Part shown: piece after piece, positions 1 to 25,262 of the stretch
Layout of the letters: each line of letters starts with the position of its first letter
Position numbering within the stretch: the stretch's first letter is position 1
IMG/VR virus record: IMGVR_UViG_3300046543_000497
Coordinates: 1-26,149 of that record
Length of the DNA: 26,149 nucleotides
Strand: one strand, 5' to 3'
Origin: a virus
Notes under the pieces: generated by a model
Databases searched by the model: none
What the model saw: the letters and a program-made list of their open reading frames with translations, nothing else
What the model was told of the DNA's origin: nothing
Translations under genes and position numbers: made by a program

Positions 1-548
1 CGAATTCCGGCTCGGCCAAGCCGAATTGTCCGATCTGCAAGGGCAAGGGCCGGACGTGGGACACGCCGATCCAGACCAAAACCGGCATCGCCGGGCGCTC
101 CGCGCATAAGGATTGGGCCGCCTTCGGCATGTGGGACGGCGGCGACGTCGTGCTGTCGATTCCGTCCGACTCGGCGCTCTACGCGATCGGCCAGTATGAC
201 CGCGTCGTCATGCTCAACCGTTCCGAGCCGTTCTCGATCAACTTCGTCGCGGGCGTGAACGACAAGGCGCTCAATCACATGACGTTCGTCTCGGTCGATC
301 GCGTGGCCTATATCAGCCCGAACGGCGGGGCGCTGGTGCTCTGTACGCCGCCGGTCGTGAATCCGGATGGATCACTGACGTGGCCGTCCGATGCGCCGCC
401 TGCGGGCGTCACGTACTCGATGTCGGGTCGCCGTCGCCAGGAATATTTCTGCTTCAACGATATGCCGTGGGACCGGCCGCATCATGCCGGCGCGCAGTTG
501 CCGCGCAACGTCGTGCTGCGCCGCTTCGATCTGTTCGGGCGCGGGTAA
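1..548 (+). CDS. Putative neck / head-tail connector protein (5' truncated by window edge)
   Basis: The reading frame is open from the first complete codon at base 3, so the gene begins outside the window; an internal ATG at 129 is not a convincing start because the upstream part is clearly coding. About 181 residues are visible. Near the visible N-terminus there is a CPICKGKGRTW segment, a CxxCxGxG-type knuckle like those of DnaJ zinc fingers, here only one knuckle. The rest is a mixed beta-rich sequence with no family I can name. It lies 6 nt upstream of the next gene and heads the neck-sheath-tube order, so a virion neck or connector role is inferred from position alone. Confidence 0.6.
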   Translation, partial: NSGSAKPNCPICKGKGRTWDTPIQTKTGIAGRSAHKDWAAFGMWDGGDVVLSIPSDSALYAIGQYDRVVMLNRSEPFSINFVAGVNDKALNHMTFVSVDRVAYISPNGGALVLCTPPVVNPDGSLTWPSDAPPAGVTYSMSGRRRQEYFCFNDMPWDRPHHAGAQLPRNVVLRRFDLFGRG

Positions 549-554
549 CGGCGC

Positions 555-1367
555 ATGAGCGCGCAATACAAAATCAGCGTGGATCTCGCGCCTGTGCTGA
601 ATCTGCTTCAGGCACAGGCCGAAACGCTGCTCGGGCGCGTCGCGGAGACGGTTCAAACCTTCGGCGAATTCGCGACGCAGAAGTGGAAAGCCGACGTCAT
701 GAACGCGAAGGGCATCTGGCTCGGCGAAAAGCAGGCATACGCGCAGTCGATCGAGTGGTACAACTCCGGCCCCTTCGAAGTGACCGTCGAGGCGGGTTAC
801 GCGAAGGCGGGCGAGATTGAAACCGGGCGCCCGGCGCGCGACCTGAAGGACGCGCTCAAGACGTCGCTGCGCGTGCGCGTGGCGAAGAACGGCAAGCACA
901 AGGGGATGCGCTACCTCATCATCCCCTTCCGGCACAACACGCCGGGCAATGACGCGCTCGCCGACGCGATGCCCGATCACGTCTACGAAGTCGCCTCGCA
1001 GATGAAGCAGTCGAAGATCACCGGCACGCGCATCGTTGCGAATCAGCAGGGCGCCGTCAGAAACGGCTTCCCGGTCATGATCCATCGCAATAAGTACAAG
1101 TGGGGCGACAAACTGCCGTCCGGGCTTACTGCGAAGAAGAAGGACTATCACGCGACCGATCCATATGCGGGCATGGTGCGCATGAAAACCAATGCGGCCG
1201 AATCGCCGAAGTCGTCCGCTTACCTCACATTCCGCGTTATGGGCGAGTGGTCGAGCGGCTGGATCATCGGGCCGCAACCAGGCCGCTATATCGCCAAGGG
1301 CGTCGCTGACGCGCTCGGGCCGAAGTTCGACACGGCGATCCAGAAGGCGCTCGAAACGGGCGGCTAA
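555..1367 (+). CDS. Putative neck / tail-completion protein
   Basis: This 270-residue protein has the look of phage head-tail joining or minor tail proteins: a helical N-terminal third (roughly residues 8-50), a charged central part, and a C-terminal stretch with a WSSGWIIGPQPGRYIAKGV segment close to the end. It has no signal peptide or membrane segment. Its position between a connector-like gene and a gene with a tail-terminator-like half, followed by sheath and tube, supports a neck role. The start at 555 follows the previous stop by 6 nt and lacks a strong Shine-Dalgarno, consistent with translational coupling. It is followed by the first copy of the repeated TCGTGAC element. The family assignment is inference. 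Confidence 0.65.
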   Translation: MSAQYKISVDLAPVLNLLQAQAETLLGRVAETVQTFGEFATQKWKADVMNAKGIWLGEKQAYAQSIEWYNSGPFEVTVEAGYAKAGEIETGRPARDLKDALKTSLRVRVAKNGKHKGMRYLIIPFRHNTPGNDALADAMPDHVYEVASQMKQSKITGTRIVANQQGAVRNGFPVMIHRNKYKWGDKLPSGLTAKKKDYHATDPYAGMVRMKTNAAESPKSSAYLTFRVMGEWSSGWIIGPQPGRYIAKGVADALGPKFDTAIQKALETGG

Positions 1368-1373
1368 ACGAAG

Positions 1374-1390
1374 TCGTGACGGGACCATGC
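1374..1390 (+). promoter_or_regulatory. Repeated intergenic element, copy 1 (TCGTGAC type)
   Basis: TCGTGAC at 1374-1380 is followed by GGGACCATGC, fitting the shared pattern TCGTGAY-NNNANNRTS seen in five gaps of the virion block. It sits 6 nt after a stop codon. An inverted repeat, CATGC-TT-GCATG (1386-1397), overlaps its end and contains the ATG of the next gene. A promoter or operator role is inferred. Confidence 0.55.
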
Positions 1391-1394
1391 TTGC

Positions 1395-2213
1395 ATGATC
1401 TCGTTTCTCATCGCGCTCGCGGCAGGTAATGCCGTATCGGTAATTCTTCAGCCGCCGCAAGGCACGCAGAAGTGTTCCGTCCTGCGCAAGCAGACCAACG
1501 ACATCGGCGGCATCTCCGACCCTGCGGCGACGCTCGTCTATACCGGCGCCGACAAATACGTGGTGGATACGTCCGGCCTCGTCAACGGGCTCACGTACTT
1601 CTATCAGCCGTTCTACTTCGACGGCACGGCATGGAGCTCCGGCGCGGTCGCATCGGTCGTGCCGCAGTGCTCCTTCGAATTCATCCAGACCGACGTTCAG
1701 ACGTTCCTGCGCGATCGCATCGCGGCGGGGCTCGTCGCGGCCGTCGCGCGCGAGGCGATCTTCCCTGAATCCGGCGTCATCCCTGTGCTCACGGCCGCGC
1801 CCGTCTTTGAAGACGTGAGCTTCCCGGTCGTGACGGTACACATGCAGCAAGACGGTTCAGCCGAGCGCGCGGTGGGCGAAGTGGTGGGCGTCGATGCGCA
1901 AGACGACGACGTCGGGCAGTTCGAAGGATGGCTCAGCCGCTACCAGATCGCGATCGCGATTTCCAGCCTGAGCTCCGACGAGCGGATCGCATTGCGCAAT
2001 CTCGTGAAGTCGATCGTGCAGGCGAATTTGCAGGTGTTCGAGTCGGCGGGGATGGAGCTCATCGACCTTCAGTTCTCCGATCAGGAGGACTTCACAACCT
2101 ACAACGTGCCGATGTTTCAGTCGCTCGGTTCGTTCTCGTGCGTGGCGCCCGCGTCGATTCAGGCGACGGTCCCGGCGGTGATCGATCAGATCGATACCAA
2201 CTACCAATTTTGA
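1395..2213 (+). CDS. Putative tail terminator with N-terminal FN3-like domain
   Basis: This is a 272-residue protein. Residues of about 12-95 read like a fibronectin type III-like sandwich, with the pattern VLRK..., LVYTGADKYVVDTSGLVNGLTY and a following YFYQPFYFDG. The C-terminal part (about 100-265) begins DVQTFLRDRIAAGL and resembles the small tail-terminator or neck proteins that cap a phage tail tube: alternating helices and strands, with an acidic loop near residue 170. Such FN3 decorations are common on virion surface proteins and may bind the cell surface. The ATG at 1395 lies inside a short inverted repeat, and no good Shine-Dalgarno is present beyond a weak ACGGGA. It precedes the sheath and tube genes. 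The domain reading is from sequence pattern only. Confidence 0.6.
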   Translation: MISFLIALAAGNAVSVILQPPQGTQKCSVLRKQTNDIGGISDPAATLVYTGADKYVVDTSGLVNGLTYFYQPFYFDGTAWSSGAVASVVPQCSFEFIQTDVQTFLRDRIAAGLVAAVAREAIFPESGVIPVLTAAPVFEDVSFPVVTVHMQQDGSAERAVGEVVGVDAQDDDVGQFEGWLSRYQIAIAISSLSSDERIALRNLVKSIVQANLQVFESAGMELIDLQFSDQEDFTTYNVPMFQSLGSFSCVAPASIQATVPAVIDQIDTNYQF

Positions 2214-2228
2214 CGAAGAGGAATGTCG

Positions 2229-2519
2229 ATGGGCAACGCCACTGACACACCGGACGCAAGCGCGTCCACGAGCACGGATACGAGCGGCGCGAGCGCCGCG
2301 CCGTCCAAGACAACCACGCTCTACACAGATACCGGGCCGCAAACGGTTAGCGAATTCGTGCAGAGCATCACAGAGTTTTGCGCGACTTTGTCCGCGAACG
2401 ATCGCCGCATCGAAATGATCGGCGCGTTCTACCGCGTCGAGTCGGCCGCCGGTCGCACGCGCGCTCTGCCTTCCGTTTTCAAGGACCGCTACGTGGCGTT
2501 CCTGACTCAGCCCGCTTAA
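2229..2519 (+). CDS. Small virion-block protein of unknown function
   Basis: The preferred start is the ATG at 2229 rather than the in-frame ATG at 2223, because the GAAGAGGA Shine-Dalgarno at 2215-2222 abuts the first and is 6 nt from the second. The product is about 96 residues. The first 35 are low complexity (Ser, Thr, Ala, Asp), followed by a folded-looking part (TVSEFVQSITEFCATLSAND, then RRIEMIGAFYRVE). No family was recognised. It is inserted between the putative tail terminator and the sheath gene, 12 nt before the sheath start, so it is co-transcribed with virion genes and may be a small tail or assembly protein. Confidence 0.65.
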   Translation: MGNATDTPDASASTSTDTSGASAAPSKTTTLYTDTGPQTVSEFVQSITEFCATLSANDRRIEMIGAFYRVESAAGRTRALPSVFKDRYVAFLTQPA

Positions 2520-2531
2520 CCGGAGACTCCT

Positions 2532-4250
2532 ATGAGTGGTTTGTTTTTCAATGGGCGTTTGTACACAAGCCCGGCCGTCGTCAGCGCGGTTGACGATTCG
2601 GCAATGAACGATCAGGGCGCGAGCGTAGGTAACTCGCTGCTCCTGATCGGTCAATCGGTGGGCGGTGAGCCGAACGCGCTCCTGAAGTTCGGCTCGCCCG
2701 CCGAAGCTCAAGCTGCACTTCGCAGCGGCGAGCTGATGGAAGCCTGCAAGAAAGCCTTCGCGCCGAGCGCGGAAACCGGCGGCCCGGCCACGGTCTACGC
2801 GATTCGCGTGAACCCGGCGACGCAATCGGTGCTCACGCTCAACGACGCATCGGCCGTGCCGACGATCGCGCTCACGACGGACGACTTTGGCCTTTACACA
2901 AACAACGTGAAGGTCAAGCTCGAAAACGCGACGACAAAGGGCTTGCTCATCACGACGCAGATCGGCAACGCGTACACGTCGGCCGACAACGTCTATCGCG
3001 ACGCCTTTTCGGTGCAGTACAGCGGTGCGCTCGCGAGCGCTGCGATTACCGTCTCGGCATCGACCGTCGATGTGTTCGCCCCGACCGGCTCGCTGCTTCA
3101 GTCGATCGATCTGACGCAGTTCCCCACGATCGGGCAGGTGGTCGATCGCATCAACTCGATTACCGGCTTCTCGGCGACCGTGCTCGACGGCAACGACCAA
3201 CGCGCAGCGCTCGGCGGGCTGGATGCTGTCACGTCGCAAGACGTCAAGACGGCGATCTACACCGTGACGGCGAACCTTCAGGCCGTGGTGGACTGGTTCA
3301 ATGGTCCCACGAGCCCGTATATCAGCGCACAGCGCCTCACGGGCTCCGACAAGCCGCCGGTGATTATGCCGTTCGCATATTTGGCGGGCGGCTCGGATGG
3401 CGTGACGACGAACACCCAATGGAGCGACGCCTTCACGACGGCTCAGACGGCTGACGTGCAGTGGGTGGTGCCGCTTTCCAGCAATCCGGCGATCGCCGCG
3501 ATGGCTGATGCGCACGTCCAGTACATGAGCACGGTCGCGCGCATGGAACGTCGGGCGATCTGCGGCACGGCACTCGGCACGACCGACGTGGCTGCCATTG
3601 CGGCCGCCAAGGCGATCAACTCCGACCGCACGGCCCTCGTGCATCTCGGCTTCTACAGCTACGACGCCAATGGCAATTACACGCTGTTTGCGCCGTACAT
3701 GACCGCCGCGCTGATCGCCGCCGGTTTCGCTGGTTTGAGCCCGGGCGAGACGATGACGAACAAGTCGCTGTCGGTGAGCGGATGGGAGCGCACGCTGCGC
3801 AATCCGACCGATACCGATGGGCTGATCTTGGGCGGCGTCATCCCGGTCGAAAGCAACTCGCGCGGCTACACCGTCACGAAGGCGATTTCGACGTGGCTCA
3901 CGAACACCAACTACAACCGCGTCGAGCTGTCGTGCGGCACGGCGGTGGATTACACCCTGCGCAGCGTGCGCGACGCGGTGCAGCCGATGCTCGGCAAGGG
4001 CGGCACGCCGCTCACGCTGGCGGCGATCCACGCGCGTGCTGAGTCGGCGCTGCGCCTGTGCGCGACGGCGGCTCCAGGCGGCCCGGGTGTGCTGGTGGGC
4101 GACAAGACGAACCCGGCCTACAAGAACCTCACGGTTTCTCTGTCGGGCGATCAGGTGGCGATCAGCTTCCAAGCAAGCCCGGTGATTCCGGTCAACTACG
4201 AAGCCGTCACGATGTACGCAGTCCCGTACAGCGGCACGGTTTCGGCATAA
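2532..4250 (+). CDS. Contractile tail sheath protein
   Basis: The 572-residue product has the size and features of myovirus tail sheath proteins, which polymerise round the tail tube and contract to drive it through the cell envelope. The N-terminus (SGLFFNGRLYTSPAVVSAVD...GNSLLLIGQS) resembles the sheath start that links adjacent subunits. The C-terminal third carries the usual conserved part: a segment GWERTLRNPTDTDGLILGGV, then a region with N-x-R-V-x-L-S-C-G-T and a closing beta strand (VAISFQASPVIPVNYEAVTM). The RBS GGAGA lies about 8 nt before the ATG. It is directly followed by the tube gene, the universal order in contractile phages. The assignment is confident at family level. Confidence 0.88.
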   Translation: MSGLFFNGRLYTSPAVVSAVDDSAMNDQGASVGNSLLLIGQSVGGEPNALLKFGSPAEAQAALRSGELMEACKKAFAPSAETGGPATVYAIRVNPATQSVLTLNDASAVPTIALTTDDFGLYTNNVKVKLENATTKGLLITTQIGNAYTSADNVYRDAFSVQYSGALASAAITVSASTVDVFAPTGSLLQSIDLTQFPTIGQVVDRINSITGFSATVLDGNDQRAALGGLDAVTSQDVKTAIYTVTANLQAVVDWFNGPTSPYISAQRLTGSDKPPVIMPFAYLAGGSDGVTTNTQWSDAFTTAQTADVQWVVPLSSNPAIAAMADAHVQYMSTVARMERRAICGTALGTTDVAAIAAAKAINSDRTALVHLGFYSYDANGNYTLFAPYMTAALIAAGFAGLSPGETMTNKSLSVSGWERTLRNPTDTDGLILGGVIPVESNSRGYTVTKAISTWLTNTNYNRVELSCGTAVDYTLRSVRDAVQPMLGKGGTPLTLAAIHARAESALRLCATAAPGGPGVLVGDKTNPAYKNLTVSLSGDQVAISFQASPVIPVNYEAVTMYAVPYSGTVSA

Positions 4251-4265
4251 GGGGAGACGCGTTAG

Positions 4266-4688
4266 ATGCGTACCAACGTAAAGACGCGCAGCGGCAACCG
4301 GGTTGTCATTCAATTTGACGGCAACACGGTCGGCCTGCTGCAAAACATTCGGATGTCGGACGAATATAGCCCGGAGCCTGCAAGCGGCATCGGCGATATT
4401 CACGCGATCGAGTACGTGCCGACGATGGCGCGTCACACGGTTTCGGCTTCGACAATGGTGCTGTTCTCGGGCGCGCTGCGCGACATGGGTCTGGTTCCCG
4501 AAAACGGTGACGCCGTGCTCGAAGGCAATGTCTTCGATATCTGCGTGCTGTCGAAGGACGACGGCTCGGTGCTGCGCAAGCTGGTGAGCTGCTCGTTCGC
4601 GAGCGGTGACACCGAAGTGTCGAAGCACGCGATTGTGACGACCAACTGCCAGTTCAACGCGCTCGACGTTGCTGGCACCGGCCTGTAA
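4266..4688 (+). CDS. Tail tube protein
   Basis: A 140-residue beta-rich protein immediately downstream of the sheath gene, which is the standard place of the inner tube subunit. Hexameric rings of such proteins stack into the DNA channel. The sequence is consistent: an N-terminal strand pair (NRVVIQFDGNTVGLLQNIRM), a GIGDIHAIEYVPT loop, and alternating strands to the end (VSCSFASGDTEVSKHAIVTTNCQFNALDV). The RBS GGGGAG lies upstream of the ATG at 4266. An alternative would be another small tail protein, but size, position and predicted fold all favour the tube. Confidence 0.8.
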   Translation: MRTNVKTRSGNRVVIQFDGNTVGLLQNIRMSDEYSPEPASGIGDIHAIEYVPTMARHTVSASTMVLFSGALRDMGLVPENGDAVLEGNVFDICVLSKDDGSVLRKLVSCSFASGDTEVSKHAIVTTNCQFNALDVAGTGL

Positions 4689-4701
4689 GGCGGGGGCGCG
4701 C

Positions 4702-5004
4702 ATGAAGACTTCTCTTCAGCGCGCCCGGCTTGATTGGCGACTGTGGGCGCTGCTGATTCCGGCAGCGCTCATTCTTTGTACCAATCTGCCGGTCGCTCTC
4801 ACCATCGGCTATTCGTTCTCCGTCGTGCTGATTTTCGCGGGTGCGTCGCACCTGCTGCGCAAGGTGCTGTTTCCCTACGTGGATCTGCGCCTGCTCGTCG
4901 CAAAAGCCGTCGAAACGCCGCTCGCTTCTGCCGTCATCTTCCTTGCCGTTGCGATCGTGCTCAGCGCGATTCTCGTGGCGAACGCGATATGGCTATCGCA
5001 CTGA
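4702..5004 (+). CDS. Putative holin (three transmembrane segments)
   Basis: The ATG at 4702 is preferred over an in-frame upstream GTG/TTG-type start at 4669, because the upstream part would overlap the tube gene. The product is 100 residues with three hydrophobic stretches: about 12-28 (LWALLIPAALILCTNL), 32-50 (ALTIGYSFSVVLIFAGA) and 75-97 (PLASAVIFLAVAIVLSAILVA). The N-terminus is basic. A class I holin forms membrane holes at a programmed time and releases the endolysin. Its overlap (16 nt) with a lytic transglycosylase gene followed by spanins defines a lysis cassette. No holin family motif was recognised, so the call rests on topology and context. Confidence 0.72.
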   Translation: MKTSLQRARLDWRLWALLIPAALILCTNLPVALTIGYSFSVVLIFAGASHLLRKVLFPYVDLRLLVAKAVETPLASAVIFLAVAIVLSAILVANAIWLSH

Positions 5005-5627
5005 GCCCGCCCGACGCGTCGCTCGCGTATCTGCCGGTCATCCGGTCGGAGCTCGTCGTGCTCTGGCCGGACCATCCGCACCCGGCATATTTGCCCGCGC
5101 AGATCGAGCAAGAAACCTGTCCGTCGCTGAAAAGCAAGCTCTGCTGGAACCCGCACGCGGAGCTCAAGACGGAGCGCGAGTACGGCTTCGGGCTCGGGCA
5201 GCTCACGGTGACGTCGAAGTTCAACAACTTCAACGAGTCGAAAAAGTGGGATCGGACGCTTCGTGATTGGCAGTGGGACGACCGCTTTAACGCCCGGTAT
5301 CAGGTGCGCGCGCTGATCGCCTATGACCGGAACCTGTTTCGCCAGATCAAGGGCGCCGCCGACGCGGAGAACCAGTACGCCTTCGCGCTTTCCGCCTACA
5401 ACGGCGGGCTCGGCGGGCTGCTGAAGGACCGCGAGCTGTGCCGCAACACGCAAGGGTGCGACGAGTCGCGCTGGTGGGGCAACGTCGAGCACACAAGCCT
5501 GAAGGCCAAGGTGGCCGTCAAGGGCTATGGGCAGAGCTTCTTCAAGGTGAATCGCGACTACGTGGTGAACGTCATGCGCGTGCGCGTCGTGCGCTACGAG
5601 TCGTCCATGAAAGGACAGAAAAAATGA
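4989..5627 (+). CDS. Endolysin, SLT-like lytic transglycosylase
   Basis: The start is the ATG at 4989, overlapping the holin stop by 16 nt; the frame is open further upstream but without sense. The 212-residue product has the order of motifs of soluble lytic transglycosylases: IEQETCP (candidate catalytic glutamate E42, in the place of the usual ES), then EYGFGLGQLTVT (compare GxxGLMQ), then FALSAYNGGLGGLLKD (compare AYNxG). Such enzymes cleave the beta-1,4 bond between MurNAc and GlcNAc. There is no signal peptide or SAR anchor, so export would depend on the holin. Two CxxxxxxC-type cysteine pairs are present. The stop overlaps the Rz start (ATGA). Confidence 0.82.
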   Translation: MAIALSPPDASLAYLPVIRSELVVLWPDHPHPAYLPAQIEQETCPSLKSKLCWNPHAELKTEREYGFGLGQLTVTSKFNNFNESKKWDRTLRDWQWDDRFNARYQVRALIAYDRNLFRQIKGAADAENQYAFALSAYNGGLGGLLKDRELCRNTQGCDESRWWGNVEHTSLKAKVAVKGYGQSFFKVNRDYVVNVMRVRVVRYESSMKGQKK

Positions 5628-6163
5628 TTTGGCTGGCAATTTTCATCTTCCTCGGCGCGTGCGCGCTGCTGCGCTGGCTGTGGGCCTTCCCGGGCGCCCG
5701 CAATGCGCTGATCGGCGTCGTGCTCGGGGCCGCGTGCGTCGCTGGCGGCTACGTGCAGGGCTCGGCGCACGTCACGGCCAAGTGGAACGCACAGAAGGCC
5801 GCTACGGCAGCCGCCGTCGCGACGGTGCAAGCCAAGCAGGCCGATGTGACTACGCAAGTCGTCACGAAGTACGTCGATCGCGTGCAAGTCGTGCGCGAAC
5901 AAGGCAAGACCATTACCCAACAGGTGACAAAGTATGTACCGCTTTCTGCTCCCGCTCTGCCTTATGGCTTCCGCGTGCTCCACGACGCTGCCGCCACAGG
6001 TATGCCCCTTCCCGACTCCGCCATCGGCCTTGATGGTCCCGCCGTCGCCGCTGCGGACGCTGCCAGCACCGTCGTCGCCAATTACACCGACTGTCGCGCC
6101 GAGTACGAAAAGCTGAAGAGCCTTCAGGATTGGGTGCAGTCGGAACAGGCCGCCGCGAAGTAG
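5624..6163 (+). CDS. Rz: i-spanin (Rz-like inner-membrane lysis protein)
   Basis: The ATG overlaps the endolysin stop as ATGA at 5624-5627. The 179-residue product begins with a hydrophobic anchor (about 2-20, IWLAIFIFLGACALLRWLW) and a second apolar stretch (about 26-44), followed by an Ala/Gln/Val-rich helical segment (about 50-100, including TVQAKQADVTTQVVTKYVDRV) likely to form the periplasmic coiled coil of Rz proteins. The C-terminus ends with a further helical segment (EYEKLKSLQDWVQSEQAAAK). In Gram-negative phages Rz pairs with the Rz1 lipoprotein to fuse inner and outer membranes at the last step of lysis. The Rz1 gene is embedded in it in the +1 frame. Confidence 0.8.
   Translation: MIWLAIFIFLGACALLRWLWAFPGARNALIGVVLGAACVAGGYVQGSAHVTAKWNAQKAATAAAVATVQAKQADVTTQVVTKYVDRVQVVREQGKTITQQVTKYVPLSAPALPYGFRVLHDAAATGMPLPDSAIGLDGPAVAAADAASTVVANYTDCRAEYEKLKSLQDWVQSEQAAAK
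5934..6116 (+). CDS. Rz1: o-spanin (Rz1-like outer-membrane lipoprotein), embedded in Rz
   Basis: The gene is contained wholly within Rz in the +1 frame, the classical embedded arrangement. The 60-residue product starts MYRFLLPLCLMASAC, a short lipoprotein signal peptide with a lipobox-like LMASAC and lipidated Cys15. The mature part is short and strongly proline-rich (LPPQV, FPTPPSA, VPPSP, LPAPSSP), the hallmark of Rz1 o-spanins. An AGGTG Shine-Dalgarno at 5922-5926 precedes the ATG by 7 nt. The -3 lipobox position is Ala rather than Leu, which is slightly non-canonical, but the signal, proline content and position make the call secure. Confidence 0.82.
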   Translation: MYRFLLPLCLMASACSTTLPPQVCPFPTPPSALMVPPSPLRTLPAPSSPITPTVAPSTKS

Positions 6164-6180
6164 GGCGCCCACGCGCGAAG

Positions 6181-6197
6181 TCGTGATTCCACTATCG
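6181..6197 (+). promoter_or_regulatory. Repeated intergenic element, copy 2 (TCGTGAT variant)
   Basis: TCGTGAT (6181-6187) then TCCACTATCG fits TCGTGAY-NNNANNRTS. The six bases before it, CGCGAAG, match the flank of copy 1 (ACGAAG). It lies 17 nt after the Rz stop and is followed directly by the intrinsic terminator at 6198-6225. Confidence 0.5.
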
Positions 6198-6225
6198 AAG
6201 GGCGGTCGCTGTGACCGCCCTTTTT
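6198..6225 (+). terminator. Intrinsic terminator after the lysis cassette
   Basis: A perfect stem, AAGGGCGGTC / GACCGCCCTT (6198-6207 and 6213-6222), has a 5-nt loop GCTGT and runs into TTTTT (6221-6225). This is a textbook Rho-independent terminator separating the neck-tube-lysis block from the tail-assembly block. Confidence 0.85.
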
Positions 6226-6236
6226 GCATAGCACTC

Positions 6237-6440
6237 ATGGATCAATTCGATCGCGCTACCGAGCTGGAAGAAAAAACCCGCGCCGCTGAGATTGCGGCCG
6301 CGCTCGCCGCGCCCAAGCTGAAGCCGACGCACTTCTGTCACTTCTGTTTCGAGCCGGTCGAATCGGGCCTCTTTTGCAACGCGGATTGCCGCGACGACTA
6401 CGAAAAAGAAGCCCGCCACAAACGCATCAATGGCCGATAA
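6237..6440 (+). CDS. Small zinc-ribbon protein
   Basis: The start at 6237 (MDQFDRATELEEK) is chosen because a longer frame from 6183 would run through the terminator. The 67-residue product has a helical, charged N-terminus and one zinc-ribbon-like site: CHFC then FCNADC, spaced C-x2-C-x9-C-x3-C, followed by the acidic/basic helix RDDYEKEARHK. The N-terminus recalls small phage DksA/TraR-like proteins, but the cysteine spacing is closer to the FCSxxCREEYEK type of zinc ribbon (DUF2116-like). Function is unknown; a regulatory role is possible. It ends at 6440 and its stop overlaps the RBS of the next gene. Confidence 0.7.
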   Translation: MDQFDRATELEEKTRAAEIAAALAAPKLKPTHFCHFCFEPVESGLFCNADCRDDYEKEARHKRINGR

Positions 6441-6450
6441 GGAAAACCCC

Positions 6451-6864
6451 ATGCGCCAACCATCCGATACCGATTTCTATGTCGAAGTGCCGAGCGTCGG
6501 CACTTTCCGCTTCGCACGCCGCACCTACGGCGATCGCATCCGCATCCGCTCCGAGTTCCTCAAGCTCACGAAGGAAGTAGGCGAAGACGATCCGGACATT
6601 CGCGCCCAAGCCGCGATCATCGCCGCGCACAAGGTGCTGTGCGTCGAGGCGCCGCAGGGATGGGAAGACTTGGAGCATCTCGATCTGGCTTCGGTACCGG
6701 ATGCGGAGGGCCGCGTGCTCGACGTCTATCTGGCGCTGAAGTCGAAGGAGGACGATTTTCGACGACCCCAAAAAGCAAACCCGGCGCGCGAAGCGGGCAG
6801 CGCGGGAGATGTACAAGACGATCGTCTTCTGGTTCCGCAAGCAGTACAACCTGTCGCCTCGTGA
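6451..6864 (+). CDS. Tail assembly chaperone, short form (gpG-like)
   Basis: The ATG at 6451 is preferred over the in-frame ATG at 6430, because AAGGA at 6439-6443 is well spaced only for the former. The unshifted product is 137 residues. It begins with a beta-rich part (FYVEVPSVGTFRFARRTYGDRIRIRSEF) and becomes acidic and helical, like the G-type proteins that bind the tape measure during tail assembly in most long-tailed phages. Its last 30-odd residues overlap another coding frame and are probably read only in the unshifted form. It lies just upstream of the tape measure, the conserved position for the G/GT pair. Confidence 0.78.
   Translation: MRQPSDTDFYVEVPSVGTFRFARRTYGDRIRIRSEFLKLTKEVGEDDPDIRAQAAIIAAHKVLCVEAPQGWEDLEHLDLASVPDAEGRVLDVYLALKSKEDDFRRPQKANPAREAGSAGDVQDDRLLVPQAVQPVAS
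6754..6775 (+). other. Programmed frameshift region of the tail chaperone genes
   Basis: The T frame is open from 6740 (after a TGA at 6737-6739) and encodes a sensible peptide well before its first ATG at 6809, so a shift into the +1 (equivalently -2) frame must occur between 6740 and about 6790. Two candidate slippery sites are visible. One is TTT-C before two CGA codons (6757-6760), where Phe-tRNA could move from TTT to TTC. The other is CCC-CAA-AAA-G (6766-6775), where Pro-tRNA could move +1 on CCCC, or a two-base backward slip could occur. With the second site the fusion would be about 199 residues. Confidence 0.65.
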
Positions 6865-7051
6865 TCCACGCTTTCTCGCGCTGACGCCTGAAGAGGTGGA
6901 AGCCGAGTACTACGCCCACGAATTCGCCGCGCGGCCGCCCGCGTCAGAGGAATTCGAGGACGACGAGTTCGACACGGACGACATTCTCGCGCAGCTCGAA
7001 GCGAATGACGGTGATTGGGAATCGCTCATAAATGACCAGTACGCAGATTAA
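6809..7051 (+). CDS. Tail assembly chaperone T domain (made as a G-T frameshift fusion)
   Basis: The first ATG of this frame is at 6809, giving 80 residues, but the frame codes upstream to about 6740 (FDDPKKQTRRAKRAARE), so the natural product is probably the G-T fusion made by frameshifting near 6757-6775 and ending at 7051. The T part has a basic segment, then MYKTIVFWFRKQYNLSPRDP, then a very acidic tail (EEFEDDEFDTDDILAQLE). In tailed phages the T domain recruits tail tube subunits to the tape measure bound by G. It overlaps the tape measure start by 20 nt. The frame relation is +1/-2, not the common -1. Confidence 0.75.
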   Translation: MYKTIVFWFRKQYNLSPRDPRFLALTPEEVEAEYYAHEFAARPPASEEFEDDEFDTDDILAQLEANDGDWESLINDQYAD

Positions 7052-10000
7052 GATTTCGGCGGATGCGAGCGCTGTCACAGCAGCGCTCGATGCCGTCAAC
7101 AAGAAGGCAGCCGAAGTCAATGCCACGCTCAACGCGGGCACTGTCGGCATCGACGCGGGCGACGCGCAGAAGCAGCTTGACGCGCTCGTGCATACGGTCG
7201 AACAGCTCACGGAAGCGACCAAGGAAGCGGCCAACGCCGGGGCCGAGCTCGACTTCGATGATGTGGCGAAGTCGGCGGCCGAAGCCGCGAAGCAAGCCGA
7301 AGCGCTCGGCAAGGCGATCAATCAGCAAGGCGCGGGCTCCGGCGTTCAGAAAACGATCAACGACCTGAAAGGGCTCGGCGACACGATCGAGCGCGTGCGC
7401 AAGGTGCAAGCGGTGCTCGCGCAAGAGGGCATCCAGCTCTCGCGCCGTCAGGCGATCGAGGCGAAAAAGCGGTATGACGAATGGCGCCAGTCCGGCGCGG
7501 TCGGCAGCGGCAAGATCCGCAATGTCCAGTTTGATGACTTCGTCGGCGGCGGCTGGCGCAAGATGGCGCTCGCCGAGATTGACGCGCGGCGCTTCCGGCG
7601 CAATGTGCTCGGTGCATCGGGCATCGACATCAGCAGCGGCGGCGGCAGCGCCGCGCCTGCGGCTCCCGGGCCGTCGCGGCAGCCGCGCGAACCGAAAGAG
7701 CTGACGCCGACCAAGGTCAAGACGCTCGCGCAGTTCGCGGCGGGCGCGGTGCAGGACGCGCTTGGCGGCGTCGCCAGCACGGCGATTCCAGGCGGTGGCG
7801 GCATCGGCGGACGGATCGCCGGGCGCGGCATCGCAGAAGCCGCCGGAAGCGAAGGCGGCCTGTTCTCGATGGGCGGCCTTGGCCGCATGGCGACGGGCCT
7901 CGGCATCGGCGCTCTCGCGTTCGGCGCCGTGAAGGCGGTCGGGGCGATCAAGGACAAGGTCAACGACGCACAGGACGAGGCGACGGCCTATACCGATCTG
8001 CGCCACGCGATCGGACAGACCGAAACGGACTTCGGCCTGCTGCGCGCTTCATTGCGCGACGCGGTGAGCGGTCTTGGCGTCGCCAACAATGAAGCCGTCC
8101 AGCTCGGCAGCCAGTTTGCGAAGATCGCGGGCATCGCGCCCGGCGGCGAACGCGCGCTCGGCGACGACGTGCGCACGAGCACGGCCTTCTCGCGCAGCTA
8201 TGGACTTGACCCCTCGCAAGGCATCGGCCTGTTTGCGAGCGCACGCCACTTCGGCGCGACGAGCAACGACGCGGAAAACCGGCGCCTCGCGATGATGATC
8301 GGCGACGCGGTCGGACACGCGGGCAGCTTCGCGAAGATGCCGGACATGATCGCGGCCGTCGAAGGCTTCACGCAGCGCGCGGGGCGCGCGTCGCTCGGCG
8401 CGGCGCCGAACATGGATTCGTTTCTCGATCAGATGTCGAAGCTCACCGGGCTTCGCATGACCGGGCTCGACACGCAGGGCGCGGCCAACCTCGTCGGCCA
8501 GATGACGAACGCATGGCACGCGGGCGGCGGCATGGGCGAAGCGTCGCGCAACTTCCGCATGCGCTCGATGAGCAACGCGCTGCCGGGCTTCACGGCCTTC
8601 GATCTGGATTACATCAACGATTCCGATCCCAACTCGACCGTCAAGCAGGCGTTCGGGCCGGGCTCGTCCGCGTATCGTGCGGCCCAATCGATGAACGACA
8701 AGAAGCGGCTCGCGCAGCTTGACGCCTACGTCAAGAAGTCGGGCAATCGCACGCTTCAAGACATCGATCTGGACGCGCTCTTCAACAGCGAATACGCCAA
8801 AAACCCGGCTGTGCTCGCCGAGGCGATCCATCAGCACACAGGCATCAGTGTGCCGCAGGCGAATGCCGTCATCGCGGCGCGCAAGCAAGGCCGCTCGGTC
8901 GGCATGACCGAAGCGACGCTCAGGGGCTTGGGCGTCGATCCGAGCACGATGCAAGCCGACTATTCGGCGCTCGCGCAGCTGCACGGTTCGAGCGCGGACA
9001 ATTTGCGGCAGATGGCGCGCGGCTACCTGAAAGACACGTCGCTCACGCCCGCGCTGCGCAGCGCACTCAAGGGGCGCCTGGACGGCGCGACGGGCGAGAG
9101 CGGCGCCGGGGTGGAGATGCTGCGCAAGTCGCTGATCCAGATTGCCGCGACTGTCGGCACGCCCAAGGACGAAGGCGCGCAGGTTCGCGAGGCGGTCGTG
9201 GACCTGAAGAACATCACGCAGGACATGGCTTCGCATCTCGTTCCGTTCACGAACGATATCCGCGCGGGCGTGCTGGCGATGGCCGAAAAGATCGCGGGCA
9301 AGTCCGACGAACGGCTCAAGGACGTCGAGGATCGCGAATTCTCGCCCGCCGAGCGCTCGCTGCGATCGCAGTATGACGATGCGACGAAGGCGCGCGACGC
9401 CGCCATGCAGGGGGCGCCGAACGCTCGCATGGCTGAGATTGACGCGCAGATTGCGGAATTCAAGCTGCATCACAAGGGCAATGATCCGGCAACGAATATC
9501 GCGCTCAAGCGGCTCCAAGATCAGCGTAAGCAGTTCGAATCCGCGGACTATTCCGCCCAACAGCAGGCCGCGCTCGACGCCGCGAACAAGAAGCTCGCCG
9601 ACGTGCGCGAAAAGATCGCCAAGGCGGCCGAAAGCGGCGACGCGGGCATCTATTTCAAGGACTTCGCGAAGCGCCTCGGCCAGAACGGCCCGGACGGCAC
9701 GCAGCAGGCCGGTCAAAACCTGCTCGCCGGGCATCTCGGCCAAGCGGGCGGCAATGGCAGCCAGAGCGAGTTCGTGAAGAAGTACGGCGCCGCCGCGCAG
9801 ATCGCCGGGAAGATGCTCGGCGTCGATCCGAAGGTGCTGCTCGGCCAGTGGGCGCTCGAAACGGGATGGGGCAAGTCGGTCGTTCCCGGCACGAACAATC
9901 TCGGCAACATGAAGTCGGCCGATGGCACTGGCGTCGATGCGATCGACAACCAGACCGGCACGCTCGACAAGTATCAGGCATTCAAGTCGCCTGAGGACTT

Positions 10001-10382
10001 CGCGCGCGCCTACGCCGCATATGTCCGGCGCAAGTATCCCGGCGCCGCAGGCGCGGGCTCGAACGCCAGCAAGTTCTTCTCGGCGCTGAAGGCGGGCGGC
10101 TACGCAACCGATCCTGACTATGTGAGCAAGGCAATGGCAACCGCTGGCGCGGTCGGCAGCCTGCCGGTTGACGCGCCGGTTCCGGGCGGCGCTGGCTTCG
10201 GGGCCATGCCGCTCCCGGCGTCGTCGGTCGTCGGCGGGGTGGGTGGCGGAATGGCGGGCGCGATGCAGCGCTTTGCCTTCGAGCACAAGATCACGCTCAC
10301 GGATCAGCACGGCCGCGCACGGCATGCGCCGATCTTCACGACGCAGCTGAGCAACCCGACGCCGAGCGGGGTGGCGTCATGA
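7032..10382 (+). CDS. Tape measure protein with C-terminal FlgJ-like glucosaminidase domain
   Basis: At 1116 residues this is the longest gene of the block. It follows the G/GT chaperones and precedes the hub, as tape measures do. The N-terminal 200 residues are Ala-rich and helical (coiled coil). A Gly/Ala-rich hydrophobic segment lies at about 276-310 (GGLFSMGGLGRMATGLGIGA), a plausible membrane-inserting part; the middle is helical, with a second charged coiled coil at about 760-870. Residues of about 911-1040 form a muralytic domain of the FlgJ/GH73 type: QWALETGWGKS with candidate catalytic E943, then NNLGNMKSADG. It probably sets tail length and locally opens peptidoglycan during DNA entry. 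It overlaps the next gene as ATGA. Confidence 0.87.
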   Translation: MTSTQIKISADASAVTAALDAVNKKAAEVNATLNAGTVGIDAGDAQKQLDALVHTVEQLTEATKEAANAGAELDFDDVAKSAAEAAKQAEALGKAINQQGAGSGVQKTINDLKGLGDTIERVRKVQAVLAQEGIQLSRRQAIEAKKRYDEWRQSGAVGSGKIRNVQFDDFVGGGWRKMALAEIDARRFRRNVLGASGIDISSGGGSAAPAAPGPSRQPREPKELTPTKVKTLAQFAAGAVQDALGGVASTAIPGGGGIGGRIAGRGIAEAAGSEGGLFSMGGLGRMATGLGIGALAFGAVKAVGAIKDKVNDAQDEATAYTDLRHAIGQTETDFGLLRASLRDAVSGLGVANNEAVQLGSQFAKIAGIAPGGERALGDDVRTSTAFSRSYGLDPSQGIGLFASARHFGATSNDAENRRLAMMIGDAVGHAGSFAKMPDMIAAVEGFTQRAGRASLGAAPNMDSFLDQMSKLTGLRMTGLDTQGAANLVGQMTNAWHAGGGMGEASRNFRMRSMSNALPGFTAFDLDYINDSDPNSTVKQAFGPGSSAYRAAQSMNDKKRLAQLDAYVKKSGNRTLQDIDLDALFNSEYAKNPAVLAEAIHQHTGISVPQANAVIAARKQGRSVGMTEATLRGLGVDPSTMQADYSALAQLHGSSADNLRQMARGYLKDTSLTPALRSALKGRLDGATGESGAGVEMLRKSLIQIAATVGTPKDEGAQVREAVVDLKNITQDMASHLVPFTNDIRAGVLAMAEKIAGKSDERLKDVEDREFSPAERSLRSQYDDATKARDAAMQGAPNARMAEIDAQIAEFKLHHKGNDPATNIALKRLQDQRKQFESADYSAQQQAALDAANKKLADVREKIAKAAESGDAGIYFKDFAKRLGQNGPDGTQQAGQNLLAGHLGQAGGNGSQSEFVKKYGAAAQIAGKMLGVDPKVLLGQWALETGWGKSVVPGTNNLGNMKSADGTGVDAIDNQTGTLDKYQAFKSPEDFARAYAAYVRRKYPGAAGAGSNASKFFSALKAGGYATDPDYVSKAMATAGAVGSLPVDAPVPGGAGFGAMPLPASSVVGGVGGGMAGAMQRFAFEHKITLTDQHGRARHAPIFTTQLSNPTPSGVAS

Positions 10383-21196: not shown

Positions 21197-21397
21197 ATGT
21201 GCCATGGAAACCCGGATGAAATACTAGCTGAGATTCTCAAGGCGCGGCCGCTTGCGCGCGACGCGCGCGGCTACACTGCGATGGATGACTTCGACCACTT
21301 CTGCGCATACTCCGGGTGCAACGAGAGCGCAGTAGGCAAAGAAACCTTCGCGTGGGCGCGACTCGCATACATTAGCGCGAAACTGCCCCCGACGTGA
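21197..21397 (+). CDS. Small hypothetical protein upstream of ligase
   Basis: The ATG at 21197 is chosen because GGAGG at 21189-21193 is ideally spaced for it, whereas the ATG at 21185 overlaps that site. The product is 66 residues (MCHGNPDEILAEILKARPLA...), helical and with three cysteines and a DDFDHFCAYSGC segment. No family was recognised. The stop overlaps the ligase start as GTGA (21394-21397), so the two are translationally coupled. It is divergent from the zinc-knuckle gene; promoters for both should lie in 21118-21196, but I could not pick convincing -35/-10 pairs. Confidence 0.62.
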   Translation: MCHGNPDEILAEILKARPLARDARGYTAMDDFDHFCAYSGCNESAVGKETFAWARLAYISAKLPPT

Positions 21398-22044
21398 GTG
21401 CGATTCCCGTCATTGCCGCGCCGGACCTCATGCTCGCGACGCTCACGCGGGCGCCGTTCTCCCGCGAAAATTGGATTTTCGAGCTGAAATACGACGGCTT
21501 CCGGTGCCTGATTCGGAAGGTGGGCGAATGCGTCGAGCTCATCTCGCGGCAAGGCAATTCGATGAATCGCTCCTTCCCCGAGATCGTTGAAGCCGTGGCG
21601 CGCGTTCCTGGCGATTTCGTGTGGGATGCCGAGCTCACGGTGGACGAGCCGACCGGACAGTCCTCTTTCGGACGCCTGCAGCTGCGTGCGCGCACGACAG
21701 TCGAGATGCGGGTGCGCGCTGCGGTAAGGCAGCATCCGGCCCGGCTCTACGTGTTCGATATGCTGGCCGAGGGCGAGCGGGACTTGCGGCAGCTGCCGCT
21801 GATCCAGCGCAAGGAAGTGCTGCGCGATGCGTTCGAAAACACTGCTGTGCTCGTCTACGTGACTGGAATCGTTGCGGCGGGCGCATGGGTGTTCGAGCAG
21901 GTAGAAGCGCACGATTTCGAAGGGATGGTCGCCAAGCGGCTCAACTCCACCTATCAGCGCGGGCGGTCGAACGATTGGCAAAAGGTCAAGTTCGCGGGCT
22001 ACAGCAGGCAGGGGGCACTCGGGTGGGGTCGCAAGCAGGTGTAA
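21394..22044 (+). CDS. Minimal ATP-dependent DNA ligase (adenylation domain only)
   Basis: The GTG start overlaps the previous stop. The 216-residue product shows the nucleotidyltransferase motifs in order: ELKYDGFR (motif I, K32 to be adenylated), VWDAEL (motif III), YVFDML, EGMVAKR (motif IV) and WQKVKFAGY (motif V). These are the motifs of LigD-type and phage ATP-dependent ligases that seal nicks. The protein ends shortly after motif V, and the OB-fold domain with motif VI that normally follows is absent. No continuation was seen in other frames downstream. It may be a natural minimal ligase, may act with a partner, or may be a degraded gene; all core residues are intact. Confidence 0.82.
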   Translation: MSAIPVIAAPDLMLATLTRAPFSRENWIFELKYDGFRCLIRKVGECVELISRQGNSMNRSFPEIVEAVARVPGDFVWDAELTVDEPTGQSSFGRLQLRARTTVEMRVRAAVRQHPARLYVFDMLAEGERDLRQLPLIQRKEVLRDAFENTAVLVYVTGIVAAGAWVFEQVEAHDFEGMVAKRLNSTYQRGRSNDWQKVKFAGYSRQGALGWGRKQV

Positions 22045-22939: not shown

Positions 22940-23812
22940 TCATCCGAGCGCCGCGCGCACAGGGAGGCGTTTAACGCTCACGAGATATGACGGCTTTGGT
23001 CCGATCGTGTACTCGGAGATAAACTGCCCGGCCTTCAGCTCTTCGAGCGCTTTCTTCAGCCGGAAGCGAAAGCCACGCTCATCCGCCTGCGTGCTCCCGC
23101 ACAGGCTGCCGAGCGTCGCCGCCTTGTACGGCAGCGGGCTCTCGTGCGTCGAATAGAACGAGTTCAGCCAGCGCGCGAGCGGCGAGAGCTTGTAATGTCG
23201 GACCCATTCGATCATCGTCATCTCGTCGCCGGTCAACAGGTTCGCCAGATCAGGATTCAGCTTGATCGTCCATTCCGCTTGTGGCGTATCTGCCATCAGC
23301 TCGTCAGCCGTGACCGCGTTCAGTAAGTGCGCGCCGTAGAGCTTCTTGCGGCCCTTCTGGCCGACCATATCGACGTCGATATAGACCGTCCCTTCGAGAA
23401 GGCGCTTGTAGCTGTCGCGCAGCCTGTCGTAGGACTCTTTCGACGTGTCCCATCCAAGTTCTTTGAGTGCCGCTCGCCCGGTGATTCGAACAGTCACGCC
23501 GAGAGGCTCCTTGCGGGCAAAATGCACGAGTTGCATGAACACGAGATGATCGTCCTGATCCAGCTCGACGCCGCTGTACTTCATGCTGACGTTTTGCAGC
23601 GACGCCACGACTCGATCCGTGTGGCGCTCGCGAGGCATGCGCTTGTCCCGCACCGCGAACAGCGCACTCGCTGACAGGCGCTTCGAGATGCCGCGCATAT
23701 CCTCATGCCAAAGCTTCAGCTGCTTGGGCTGGGCAAATTCCTGTTCGAGTCGCTGCGCTCGTTCTAACGCTGTCGGCACGGCATTTTCCTGCGGCGAATT
23801 AGTCTCTTTCAT
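22940..23812 (-). CDS. Plasmid replication initiator, TrfA family
   Basis: The product is 290 residues from the ATG at 23812 (MKETNSPQENAVPTALERAQ). The frame is open further upstream only because it runs through the iterons, so the longer form is rejected. A GTG at 23779 has a better-spaced AGGA and is an alternative. The sequence follows TrfA initiators: SASALFAVRDKR near the start, SMKYSGVELDQDDHLVFMQL, a long helical middle with RITGRAALKELGW, then SPLARWLNSFYSTHESPLPY and RFRLKKALEELKAG near the end. TrfA binds iterons and loads replication at an origin of the RK2 type. Eight iteron units lie directly upstream. Confidence 0.85.
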   Translation of the reverse strand: MKETNSPQENAVPTALERAQRLEQEFAQPKQLKLWHEDMRGISKRLSASALFAVRDKRMPRERHTDRVVASLQNVSMKYSGVELDQDDHLVFMQLVHFARKEPLGVTVRITGRAALKELGWDTSKESYDRLRDSYKRLLEGTVYIDVDMVGQKGRKKLYGAHLLNAVTADELMADTPQAEWTIKLNPDLANLLTGDEMTMIEWVRHYKLSPLARWLNSFYSTHESPLPYKAATLGSLCGSTQADERGFRFRLKKALEELKAGQFISEYTIGPKPSYLVSVKRLPVRAALG

Positions 23813-23830
23813 CGTAGCAAAAAGCCAGTC

Positions 23831-23995
23831 GGGGTTTGAGAAACGGGGTGCGGGGTTTGACAAACACTTTTCGTGTTTTGACCGAGTGAGTTCGGGGTTT
23901 GACAAACATTCGTTCGGGGTTTGACAAACATTCTTCGGGGTTTGACAAACGGAAAGATCGGGGTTTGACAAACACTTCTTCGGGGTTTGAAAAAC
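23831..23995 (+). repeat. Iteron array of the plasmid origin (seven clear copies, one degenerate)
   Basis: GGGGTTTGACAAAC or a one-base variant begins at 23831, 23852, 23894, 23916, 23937, 23960 and 23982, so spacing is 21-23 bp (two helical turns). The 42-bp gap between 23852 and 23894 holds a degenerate copy at 23873 (GTGTTTTGACCGAG), exactly in phase. The core GTTTG-A-CAAAC is a perfect 5-1-5 dyad. These are the expected binding sites of the adjacent TrfA-like protein and mark the replication origin. Confidence 0.87.
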
Positions 23996-24165: not shown

Positions 24166-24585
24166 TCAGTCGTGCTTCGGTGGCTCGATCCCGCGCTCGC
24201 GGAGCATCCGATGAACCTCCTTCATCACGCCGCGCATCGCGATCGAGTGCATCGACTCGCCGAGCGACGTTTCGCCGAGAAACCAGAGCTCCCGGTATTG
24301 GATTTCGTTGAGCCGGAGATTGAACACCTTCGGCACGCGCACGTTCGCCTCTTCCCACGGATAAGGCTCGACGCCCTTCCCCTTCCCGCGCGGAGCCCGT
24401 TTTTCGGCCGCTGGCGCCTCTGCTTCCGATTCCTGGCTGTCTGCGGCCGTCGCTGGCGCCGCCGGGGCCGCCTGAGCCGCCTGAGCCGCGATTTCGGCCG
24501 CGTCGGCGCCGTACTGGATCGTCCCGTTGTTCGCTTGCAGCTCGGCCAGCACGTCGCGGCCCTTGGGCTTCATGATTGATGTCAT
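24166..24585 (-). CDS. Small partition protein, ParB-like centromere-binding (probable RHH)
   Basis: The gene overlaps parA as ATGA (24582-24585), a sign of a two-gene par operon. The 139-residue product has an Ala/Glu/Pro-rich, disordered N-terminal half and a basic linker (EKRAPRGKGKG). The C-terminal domain begins VRVPKVFNLRLNEIQYRELW, followed by helices (ESMHSIAMRGVMKEVHRMLR), which fits a ribbon-helix-helix fold with one DNA-contacting strand. Small RHH partners of ParA are common on plasmids and bind repeats upstream of their operon, also acting as autorepressors. An ATG 12 nt into the gene (24573) is an alternative start. The RHH reading is by pattern. Confidence 0.72.
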   Translation of the reverse strand: MTSIMKPKGRDVLAELQANNGTIQYGADAAEIAAQAAQAAPAAPATAADSQESEAEAPAAEKRAPRGKGKGVEPYPWEEANVRVPKVFNLRLNEIQYRELWFLGETSLGESMHSIAMRGVMKEVHRMLRERGIEPPKHD

Positions 24586-25262
24586 TTTCCGAAAATCTCC
24601 AAATACAGGTCTTTCACGTCGTGCGCGGCGGCCGCGTCGAAGCCTTCGCGCTTGGTCGCAATCTCATGCACCGCCCTGCCCTGCGCCATCGCGTATTTGA
24701 ACGCGACGCGCTTGCCAATTTGCGTCTTCAGGAGCGGCAGCACGTCCGCGTAGTCATGCATGACTTCGAGAGTGTCGCGCGTGAGCTTCGGCGACTCGTT
24801 CGCCATGTTCAGCACGACGCTGACGTTTGGCTTTTTCTTGAAACTGCGCACAAGTTCGGCTAAGTCCGGCACGGTGTTTATGTCAGCGGGCGACGGCACG
24901 AGCGGCGCGACAATCTTGTCGGATACGGTCATTGCGGCGCGAAAGAGCTCGCCATCTTGGCCGCCGACTTCGAGGAAAATATCGTCGTATTGGCCGAGCA
25001 TCTCCTGCAGGCGCTCGCCGAAAAACAGGATATCGGCGCCCACGTCGGGCTTCGGTCGCTTGGGCAAAAGTGCGATGTGGATCGGCGCGAGCGTCGCGTC
25101 ACTCTGCCGATCGACGCCCCACTTCCCGGTCGTCGTCTGTCGCCAGTCAAGATCGAAAATGGCCGTGCGGTATTTGAGCGACGCGCGCACGGCGGCGACG
25201 TTCTGTGCGAGGGTGGACTTGCCGGTGCCGCCCTTCCCTACGCCGAAAAGCACGATTCCCAT
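24582..25262 (-). CDS. parA: Partition ATPase ParA
   Basis: The 226-residue protein begins MGIVLFGVGKGGTGKSTLAQ, with the deviant Walker A box KGGTGKST at residues 10-17 (signature K10), the mark of ParA/MinD ATPases. It continues with FDLDWRQTTTGKW (A' region) and DDIFLEVGGQDGELFR in the Walker B area, where D-x-G-G-D-type residues are partly replaced (LEVGGQD). ParA forms nucleoid-bound patterns that move plasmid copies to daughter cells. At this length it lacks an N-terminal DNA-binding domain, so it is of the small (type Ib) kind that pairs with small RHH proteins, as found next to it. Confidence 0.87.
   Translation of the reverse strand: MGIVLFGVGKGGTGKSTLAQNVAAVRASLKYRTAIFDLDWRQTTTGKWGVDRQSDATLAPIHIALLPKRPKPDVGADILFFGERLQEMLGQYDDIFLEVGGQDGELFRAAMTVSDKIVAPLVPSPADINTVPDLAELVRSFKKKPNVSVVLNMANESPKLTRDTLEVMHDYADVLPLLKTQIGKRVAFKYAMAQGRAVHEIATKREGFDAAAAHDVKDLYLEIFGK

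Follow-up and report, generated by a model that had tools for sequence, protein, structure and literature searches.

A conserved UUU_C as the predicted +1 frameshift site between the overlapping tail assembly chaperone genes G and T of contractile-tailed phages

The window, that is, the whole stretch of DNA analysed, is a virus record of 26,149 bases and is probably a fragment. Two overlapping open reading frames in different frames, designated G and T, lie just 5' of the tape measure gene, and the same order was found in the relatives. The features of the locus are detailed in Table 1. The gene that follows the tail sheath gene was considered a probable tube gene because it is placed directly after the sheath, like the tube in SPO1 and Adastra. 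An alternative upstream ATG for G is present at 6430; homology with the relatives starts at about residues 6-8 of this longer ORF, indicating that G is conserved from about ATG 6451, before which AAGGAAAACCCC stands.

Table 1. Coordinates of the tail genes and of the features of the G-T overlap in the window.
Feature	Position	Strand	Details
Tail sheath	2532..4250	+	phrog_279, E 4.3e-60
Probable tail tube protein	4266..4688	+	phrog_985 virion structural protein, E 2e-30; directly after the sheath
G, tail assembly chaperone, short product	6451..6864	+	137 aa; frame 1 ORF 6430..6864
TGA closing the T frame upstream	6737..6739	+	sequence reading
Shine-Dalgarno-like AAGGAGG in the mRNA	6745..6751	+	ends 5 nt before UUU
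Predicted slip site UUU_C	6757..6760	+	P-site tRNA-Phe from UUU (6757-6759) to UUC (6758-6760)
T, C-terminal half reached via the predicted frameshift	6758..7051	+	frame 2; open from 6740 to 7048; stop 7049-7051
CCC-CAA-AAA-G, rejected alternative site	6766..6775	+	not conserved
First T-frame ATG (6809-6811) with abutting GGGAG (6804-6808)	6804..6811	+	zero spacing
Predicted fusion gpGT	6451..7051	+	6451-6759 joined to 6761-7051; 199 aa; C6760 skipped
Tape measure protein with glucosaminidase domain	7032..10382	+	PF01832, E 1e-18, residues 920-1037; overlaps the end of T

The distance between the end of the sheath gene and G is about 2.2 kb in the window (4266-6451), and is shorter than 580 nt in 59 of the 63 relatives in which it could be measured. 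Two ORFs within this gap, at 4734-5627 and 5438-6163, may be lysis genes. A small ORF just before G (6183-6440, plus strand) encodes paired CxxC-like cysteines (CHFCF...CNADC) and had no Pfam match. Outside the tail region, a 216-aa ORF (21394-22041, plus strand) matched only the adenylation domain of ATP-dependent DNA ligase (PF01068, E 1.5e-30). On the minus strand, a TrfA-like plasmid replication initiator (22943-23971, PF07042, E 5.9e-26) and a ParA/MipZ-like ATPase (24585-25262, PF09140, E 2.3e-11) were found, and their occurrence alongside the tail genes in one record suggests a phage-plasmid lifestyle.

A search at the DNA level among phages gave no match to the window. The cultured relatives, on the basis of G, are contractile-tailed phages of approximately 90-95 kb: Bordetella phage PHB04, Aeromonas phage ST4, Pseudomonas phages Dolphis, Jeremy and Touem01, Enterobacter phage phiT5282EW, and Yersinia phage fHe-Yen8-01.

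T of the window matched the tail assembly chaperone family phrog_25000 (E 2.3e-4), which was also matched by 23 of 30 T proteins and by 7 of the 31 aligned G proteins. G of the window had no family match of its own, and none in Pfam. The AlphaFold2 model of G (m09b83c5bda36), computed from 36 aligned sequences, reached a pLDDT of 93.7. Plain Foldseek of this model against the PDB gave no significant match; after realignment, the best Z was that of the HK97 tail assembly chaperone 2ob9_A, which ranked ahead of unrelated folds with a value of 4.9 (81 aligned, rmsd 3.8) that lies below the decisive level. Among the predicted viral structures of BFVD, the best-named chaperone match was the tail assembly chaperone of Bacillus phage JL (E 3.3e-4), while a match to Proteus phage Myduc was attributed to chance (E 0.6). 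G and T would each make up one half of a tail assembly chaperone of the lambda type, and would act as chaperones of the tape measure protein.

Related loci were gathered with the sheath and G proteins, and 127 records were then searched with separate profiles of G and T, built from 31 and 30 earlier loci, respectively (the T alignment, A2, has 30 rows). Since the two genes were located independently, their register was not built into the search. G was found in 118 records, T in 110, and both in 110; these G-T pairs comprise 73 distinct ones, the window included, and 37 identical copies. T was in the +1/-2 register to G in all 73 distinct pairs, as originally predicted for the window, and the -1 register of lambda and other tail chaperones was found in none. 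An assembly error as the cause of the frame change was ruled out by this common register. Eight loci had G but not T; L010, L012, L094 (three copies of one sequence) and L089 reach the slip site and have TTT CG, and L054, L069, L085 and L088 end before it. In two related contigs, L061 and L072, the sheath gene is immediately followed by a large gene in the place of the expected tube and chaperones (L061:6328-8484 and L072:3864-7598), and no G was found in their available DNA. Seven more records without G (L019, L053, L086, L090, L111, L116 and L118) were taken as contig fragments.

The earliest ATG, GTG or TTG of the T frame in the window is ATG 6809, with 69 nt open ahead of it, and conserved residues are found within this stretch: Ala at codon +8 from the site in 44 of 62 clusters, and Lys at codon +9 in 45. 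The original prediction that T coding runs upstream of its first ATG down to the stop at 6737 was borne out, and its proposal that a shift into the +1 register is needed between 6740 and about 6790 is supported.

The last conserved column of G was Phe; in all 72 aligned distinct pairs its codon was TTT, with C as the next base. In a very distant locus (L043), for which the profile stopped short, TTT CGT likewise stands at the end of G, giving 73 of 73, and two loci with G only (L010 and L089) and the cultured phage Touem01 agree. All 62 clusters formed at 80% protein identity used TTT, compared with 24.4% of Phe codons across these tail genes (p 1e-38), and so did all 36 clusters formed at 60% (one random member each), compared with 34.5% within G (101/293; p 2e-17); these p-values, like those given below, assume that the clusters are independent. 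T-frame stops were located at codons -14 to -7 and were absent from -6 onward (62/62 clusters stop-free), and G-frame stops begin at codon +5, the nearest stops to TTT being 17 nt before it in the T frame and 15 nt after it in G. The T frame is not conserved 5' of the Phe, nor is G past the next codon. Because the stops confine the shift to a short interval of which TTT-C is the only invariant feature, TTT-C was taken as the site, and from the aligned sequences the placement of the predicted frameshift at 6757-6760 is close to certain.

TTT-C before CGA-CGA (6757) had been one of two candidates named from the window sequence, and its conservation in the 73 distinct pairs singles it out. The other, CCC-CAA-AAA-G (6766), contains a run of A and C that looks slippery by eye, but at that place the nearest four other relatives read CCC GCG CGA (L008), CCC AAA GCA (L010), CCC CAA GGA (L011) and CCC CAA AAA (L009), so that three of the four lack it. 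Furthermore, only 3 of 62 clusters had AAAAA in the 30 nt that follow TTT, and a shift at this second place has next to no probability. Elsewhere in the tail genes UUU_CGN was not avoided (23 TTT-CGN, 98 TTC-CGN; odds ratio 0.74, p 0.23), which suggests that by itself it may be only weakly slippery.

The codons on both sides of TTT were also biased. The zero-frame codon in the A site of the window is CGA (6760..6762, plus strand), completing the UUU_CGN motif. Over the 72 pairs, TTT was followed by CGC (31), CGA (29), CGT (10) or CGG (1), and in one relative (L108) by CAG in place of CGN. CGA was enriched at this position, accounting for 24 of 61 Arg codons versus 7% of the Arg codons in the tail genes, and CGG was depleted (1/61 versus 19.6%). 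CGA is a slow codon, and the one at 6760..6762, of a kind rare in these tail genes, is proposed to be slow. The codon before TTT, in the E site, was Ser in 42 of 62 clusters (TCC 21, TCT 18, TCG 3, AGC/AGT 0), TCC and TCT together making up 39 of the 42 Ser codons (p 9e-19). In the window it is GAU (6754..6756, plus strand), while its sister loci L008-L011 have TCC, which was found in 28 of the 72 distinct pairs. UCC before UUU, a feature of influenza PA-X that lies outside the amalgavirus consensus and is not class-defining, is therefore absent from the window itself; in most relatives the preceding UCC or UCU would also matter for the shift.

Upstream of the site, AAG GAG at codons -4/-3 is Shine-Dalgarno-like and ends 6 nt before TTT, or 5 nt when read as AAGGAGG. 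The core GGAG was present in 49 of 62 clusters. Glu codons at this place were GAG rather than GAA in 54 of 61 cases (background 62%, p 4e-6), and Arg at codon -4 was CGG or AGG in 10 of 11 (background 24%, p 5e-6). Both biases persisted when clusters at 60% were used with the codon usage of G itself as background (p 2e-4 and 8e-5, respectively). The element is conserved beyond the needs of the protein, which points to selection on the upstream Shine-Dalgarno-like sequence in the proteobacterial relatives. AAGGAGG would probably pair with 16S rRNA and hold the ribosome over the site.

No conserved RNA structure was detected downstream of the site (mean z 0.03 over 62 clusters, +9 to +69). The stretch from -60 to 0 folds slightly better than shuffled sequences (mean z -1.0). 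AAGGA is complementary to UCCUU around the site in relatives (6745-6759 in the window), and a U replacing the second C can still pair with G. The better folding of this stretch may be due to the AAGGA/UCCUU pairing, which in turn may arise incidentally from the Shine-Dalgarno and UCC elements.

Starting from the distant locus, the comparison reached Bacillus phages Goe26 and SBSphiC and, through these, the family Herelleviridae, of which 18 loci were examined, including SPO1 (one copy counted), Twort, K and A511. T was in the +1 register with TTT_C at the end of G in the 18 loci, followed by CGN in 17 and by CTG in LfeInf. Eight of them have a T frame that becomes open just 5 nt ahead of TTT and a G stop separated from TTT by only two codons, so that the shift is boxed within about four codons. 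The Ser codon before TTT was TCC in 8 of 8 cases, versus 9.2% of Ser codons (p 5e-9). A GGAG-type element was found upstream in only 2 of the 18 loci, and its rarity indicates that the Shine-Dalgarno-like sequence is a feature of the proteobacterial branch.

SPO1 resembles the window in the gene order sheath, tube, G, T and tape measure, in TCC_TTT_CGT at the end of G, and in phrog_25000, matched by both of its halves as it is by T of the window and by some of the G relatives; protein identity between the two is very low. Its gp10.2/gp11.1 pair is annotated as a +1 ribosomal slippage, and that of Adastra as a +1 frameshift product. The +1 chaperone shift of Moonbeam is called unusual in the available part of its description, where the site is not named (PMC4299906). 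The G protein of SPO1 had no match in the viral contigs searched, and that of A511 matched a single locus, at 100%. The records of Twort (L135:1592-2050) and LpeD (L137:1592-2062) call the T half an RNA polymerase beta subunit. T of Twort matches phrog_1316, which carries an RNA polymerase label (E 2.4e-45), and also the chaperone families phrog_4988 and phrog_25000, and the label on both proteins looks wrong.

In haloviruses, TTT CGC was found at the same place in six of six loci (HSTV-2 and five others). A TTT-CGn +1 site has already been proposed for the HF1 group, with reference to the work on PA-X (PMC7230728). These viruses (HF1 group and HSTV-2, Hafunaviridae) share with the window a chaperone pair in the +1 register and TTT-CGC near the end of G, a likeness of motif and register; they differ in their archaeal host and in that four of the six loci lack a Shine-Dalgarno-like element.

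Two further explanations of these data concern the overlap itself. The Phe at TTT is invariant in both frames, and TTT could be kept by dual coding if this residue were needed in each protein while the ribosome slipped elsewhere in the overlap. However, no conservation is seen in the T frame before this residue or in G past the adjoining codon, the eight boxed Herelleviridae loci leave about four codons around TTT for the shift, and the preferences for TCY, CGA and GGAG in neighbouring codons are not explained by the protein, making dual coding extremely unlikely. On the other hand, T could be a separate protein that is initiated independently of G, either at ATG 6809 or at an unconventional start around 6755-6758, with no need of a fusion. 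AAGGAGG at 6745-6751 is a strong Shine-Dalgarno placed as for a start near 6757, and an ATG is indeed present at 6809. Nevertheless, the abutting GGGAG with zero spacing makes ATG 6809 a poor initiation site, and T-frame conservation begins before it. Of the 72 pairs, 54 have no T-frame ATG or reach the first one only after more than 90 nt, and L008, L009 and L073 have no ATG, GTG or TTG in T past the site. At the site, every T frame reads UUC, which is not a start codon, and the 16 of 18 Herelleviridae loci without a Shine-Dalgarno keep the site. Independent initiation of T was consequently considered highly improbable.

The explanation favoured here is a +1 slippage in the P site. Most ribosomes would read G in frame 1 to 6864, and the tRNA-Phe in the P site would occasionally slip from UUU to UUC over the slow CGN codon, the new frame beginning at GAC after C6760 is skipped. 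This tRNA, with anticodon GAA, is described as pairing better with UUC than with UUU (PMC3498833). The efficiency would not be expected to exceed a few per cent; the lambda gpG/gpGT system likewise has a minority long product, which is needed for tail assembly (PMC5009743). In the window, a +1 shift would yield the junction peptide EDDFDDPK and a -2 shift EDDFFDDPK; in SPO1, the tryptic peptide predicted from a +1 shift at UUU_C is AYDNWYHSFVNQVNPEK, and a -2 shift would add a second F.

The closest parallel to this slippage is PA-X of influenza virus, in which UCC_UUU_CGU gives a +1 peptide by mass spectrometry and no -2 peptide is reported; changes of UCC cut shifting by 40-70%, a change of CGU to CGG cut it by half, and the efficiency is about 1% (PMC3498833). 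The codon biases found here run in the same way as those mutants and so lend independent support to the mechanism. The +1 consensus of plant amalgaviruses is UUU_CGN (PMC5052127). PA-X and the amalgaviruses share with the window UUU_C with a sense codon, CGN, in the A site, and PA-X shares UCC before UUU with many of the relatives, the window having GAU; they differ in their eukaryotic ribosomes, unrelated genes and lack of a Shine-Dalgarno. The direction in PA-X is proven by mass spectrometry, and in the phages it is inferred.

A Mu-like shift of -2 at this position was also considered. It reaches the same frame, and DNA does not directly separate it from +1; the fusion would gain one residue, a second Phe. 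Mu has the same gene pair and the same resulting frame, and its chaperone uses -2 (PMC5009743). With -2, however, the tRNA would face the two bases just upstream of UUU together with its first U, so that re-pairing on UUU needs a preceding codon ending in UU, a situation found in 1 of 72 pairs and not in the window, whereas the +1 re-pairing on UUC is available in all 72. Given also the absence of a -2 peptide in PA-X, which has the same motif, a -2 shift is very unlikely. Mu's -2 shift, moreover, occurs at a different sequence. The kinship with Mu put forward in the original prediction does not stand, nor does its argument that the system adds to a small class, as it belongs to a large +1 set that is annotated in SPO1-type phages and proposed for haloviruses (PMC7230728). 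With regard to other known systems, the gene for release factor 2, prfB, also has a Shine-Dalgarno-like element upstream of a P-site slip. It uses CUU_UGA with that element about 3 nt away, while the window has a sense codon, UUU_C and a spacing of 5-6 nt. The tail chaperones of Vandenendeviridae and Andersonviridae shift -1 at GTTTTT (PMC12846349).

On the evidence of sequence comparison, +1 P-site slippage at UUU_C is, with high probability, the best explanation of the predicted G-T fusion; the +1 direction is very likely, and the action of the flanking elements as stimulators is probable.

The +1 register in tail chaperones was already known from SPO1, Moonbeam and HSTV-2 (review PMC5009743). 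Within the open-access literature searched, no paper was found that assigns UUU_CGN to the tail chaperones of bacterial phages, nor was the arrangement of a Shine-Dalgarno plus UUU_CGN found described. Tail-chaperone shifts are usually described as -1, and +1 cases have been noted as oddities, mostly without a site; data indicated that a +1 slip site is readable from comparison alone, and far more firmly than from one genome. The comparison also corrects the annotation of T, which most of the records opened list as a hypothetical protein and two as RNA polymerase beta subunit. The UUU_CGN signal of eukaryotic viruses, suggested also for haloviruses, is now joined by dozens of natural variants from bacterial phages, with and without a Shine-Dalgarno helper, and ordinary reporters in E. 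coli and B. subtilis could thereby test what the codons on either side of UUU do. As a tentative and rather doubtful proposal, UUU_CGN, preferably after UCC, may be a +1 element that works on the ribosomes of all three domains and has been kept in the chaperones of contractile-tailed viruses since a time before Herelleviridae diverged from the PHB04-like phages of proteobacteria, and perhaps from the viruses of haloarchaea, the proteobacterial branch having added a Shine-Dalgarno stimulator at a spacing other than that of prfB.
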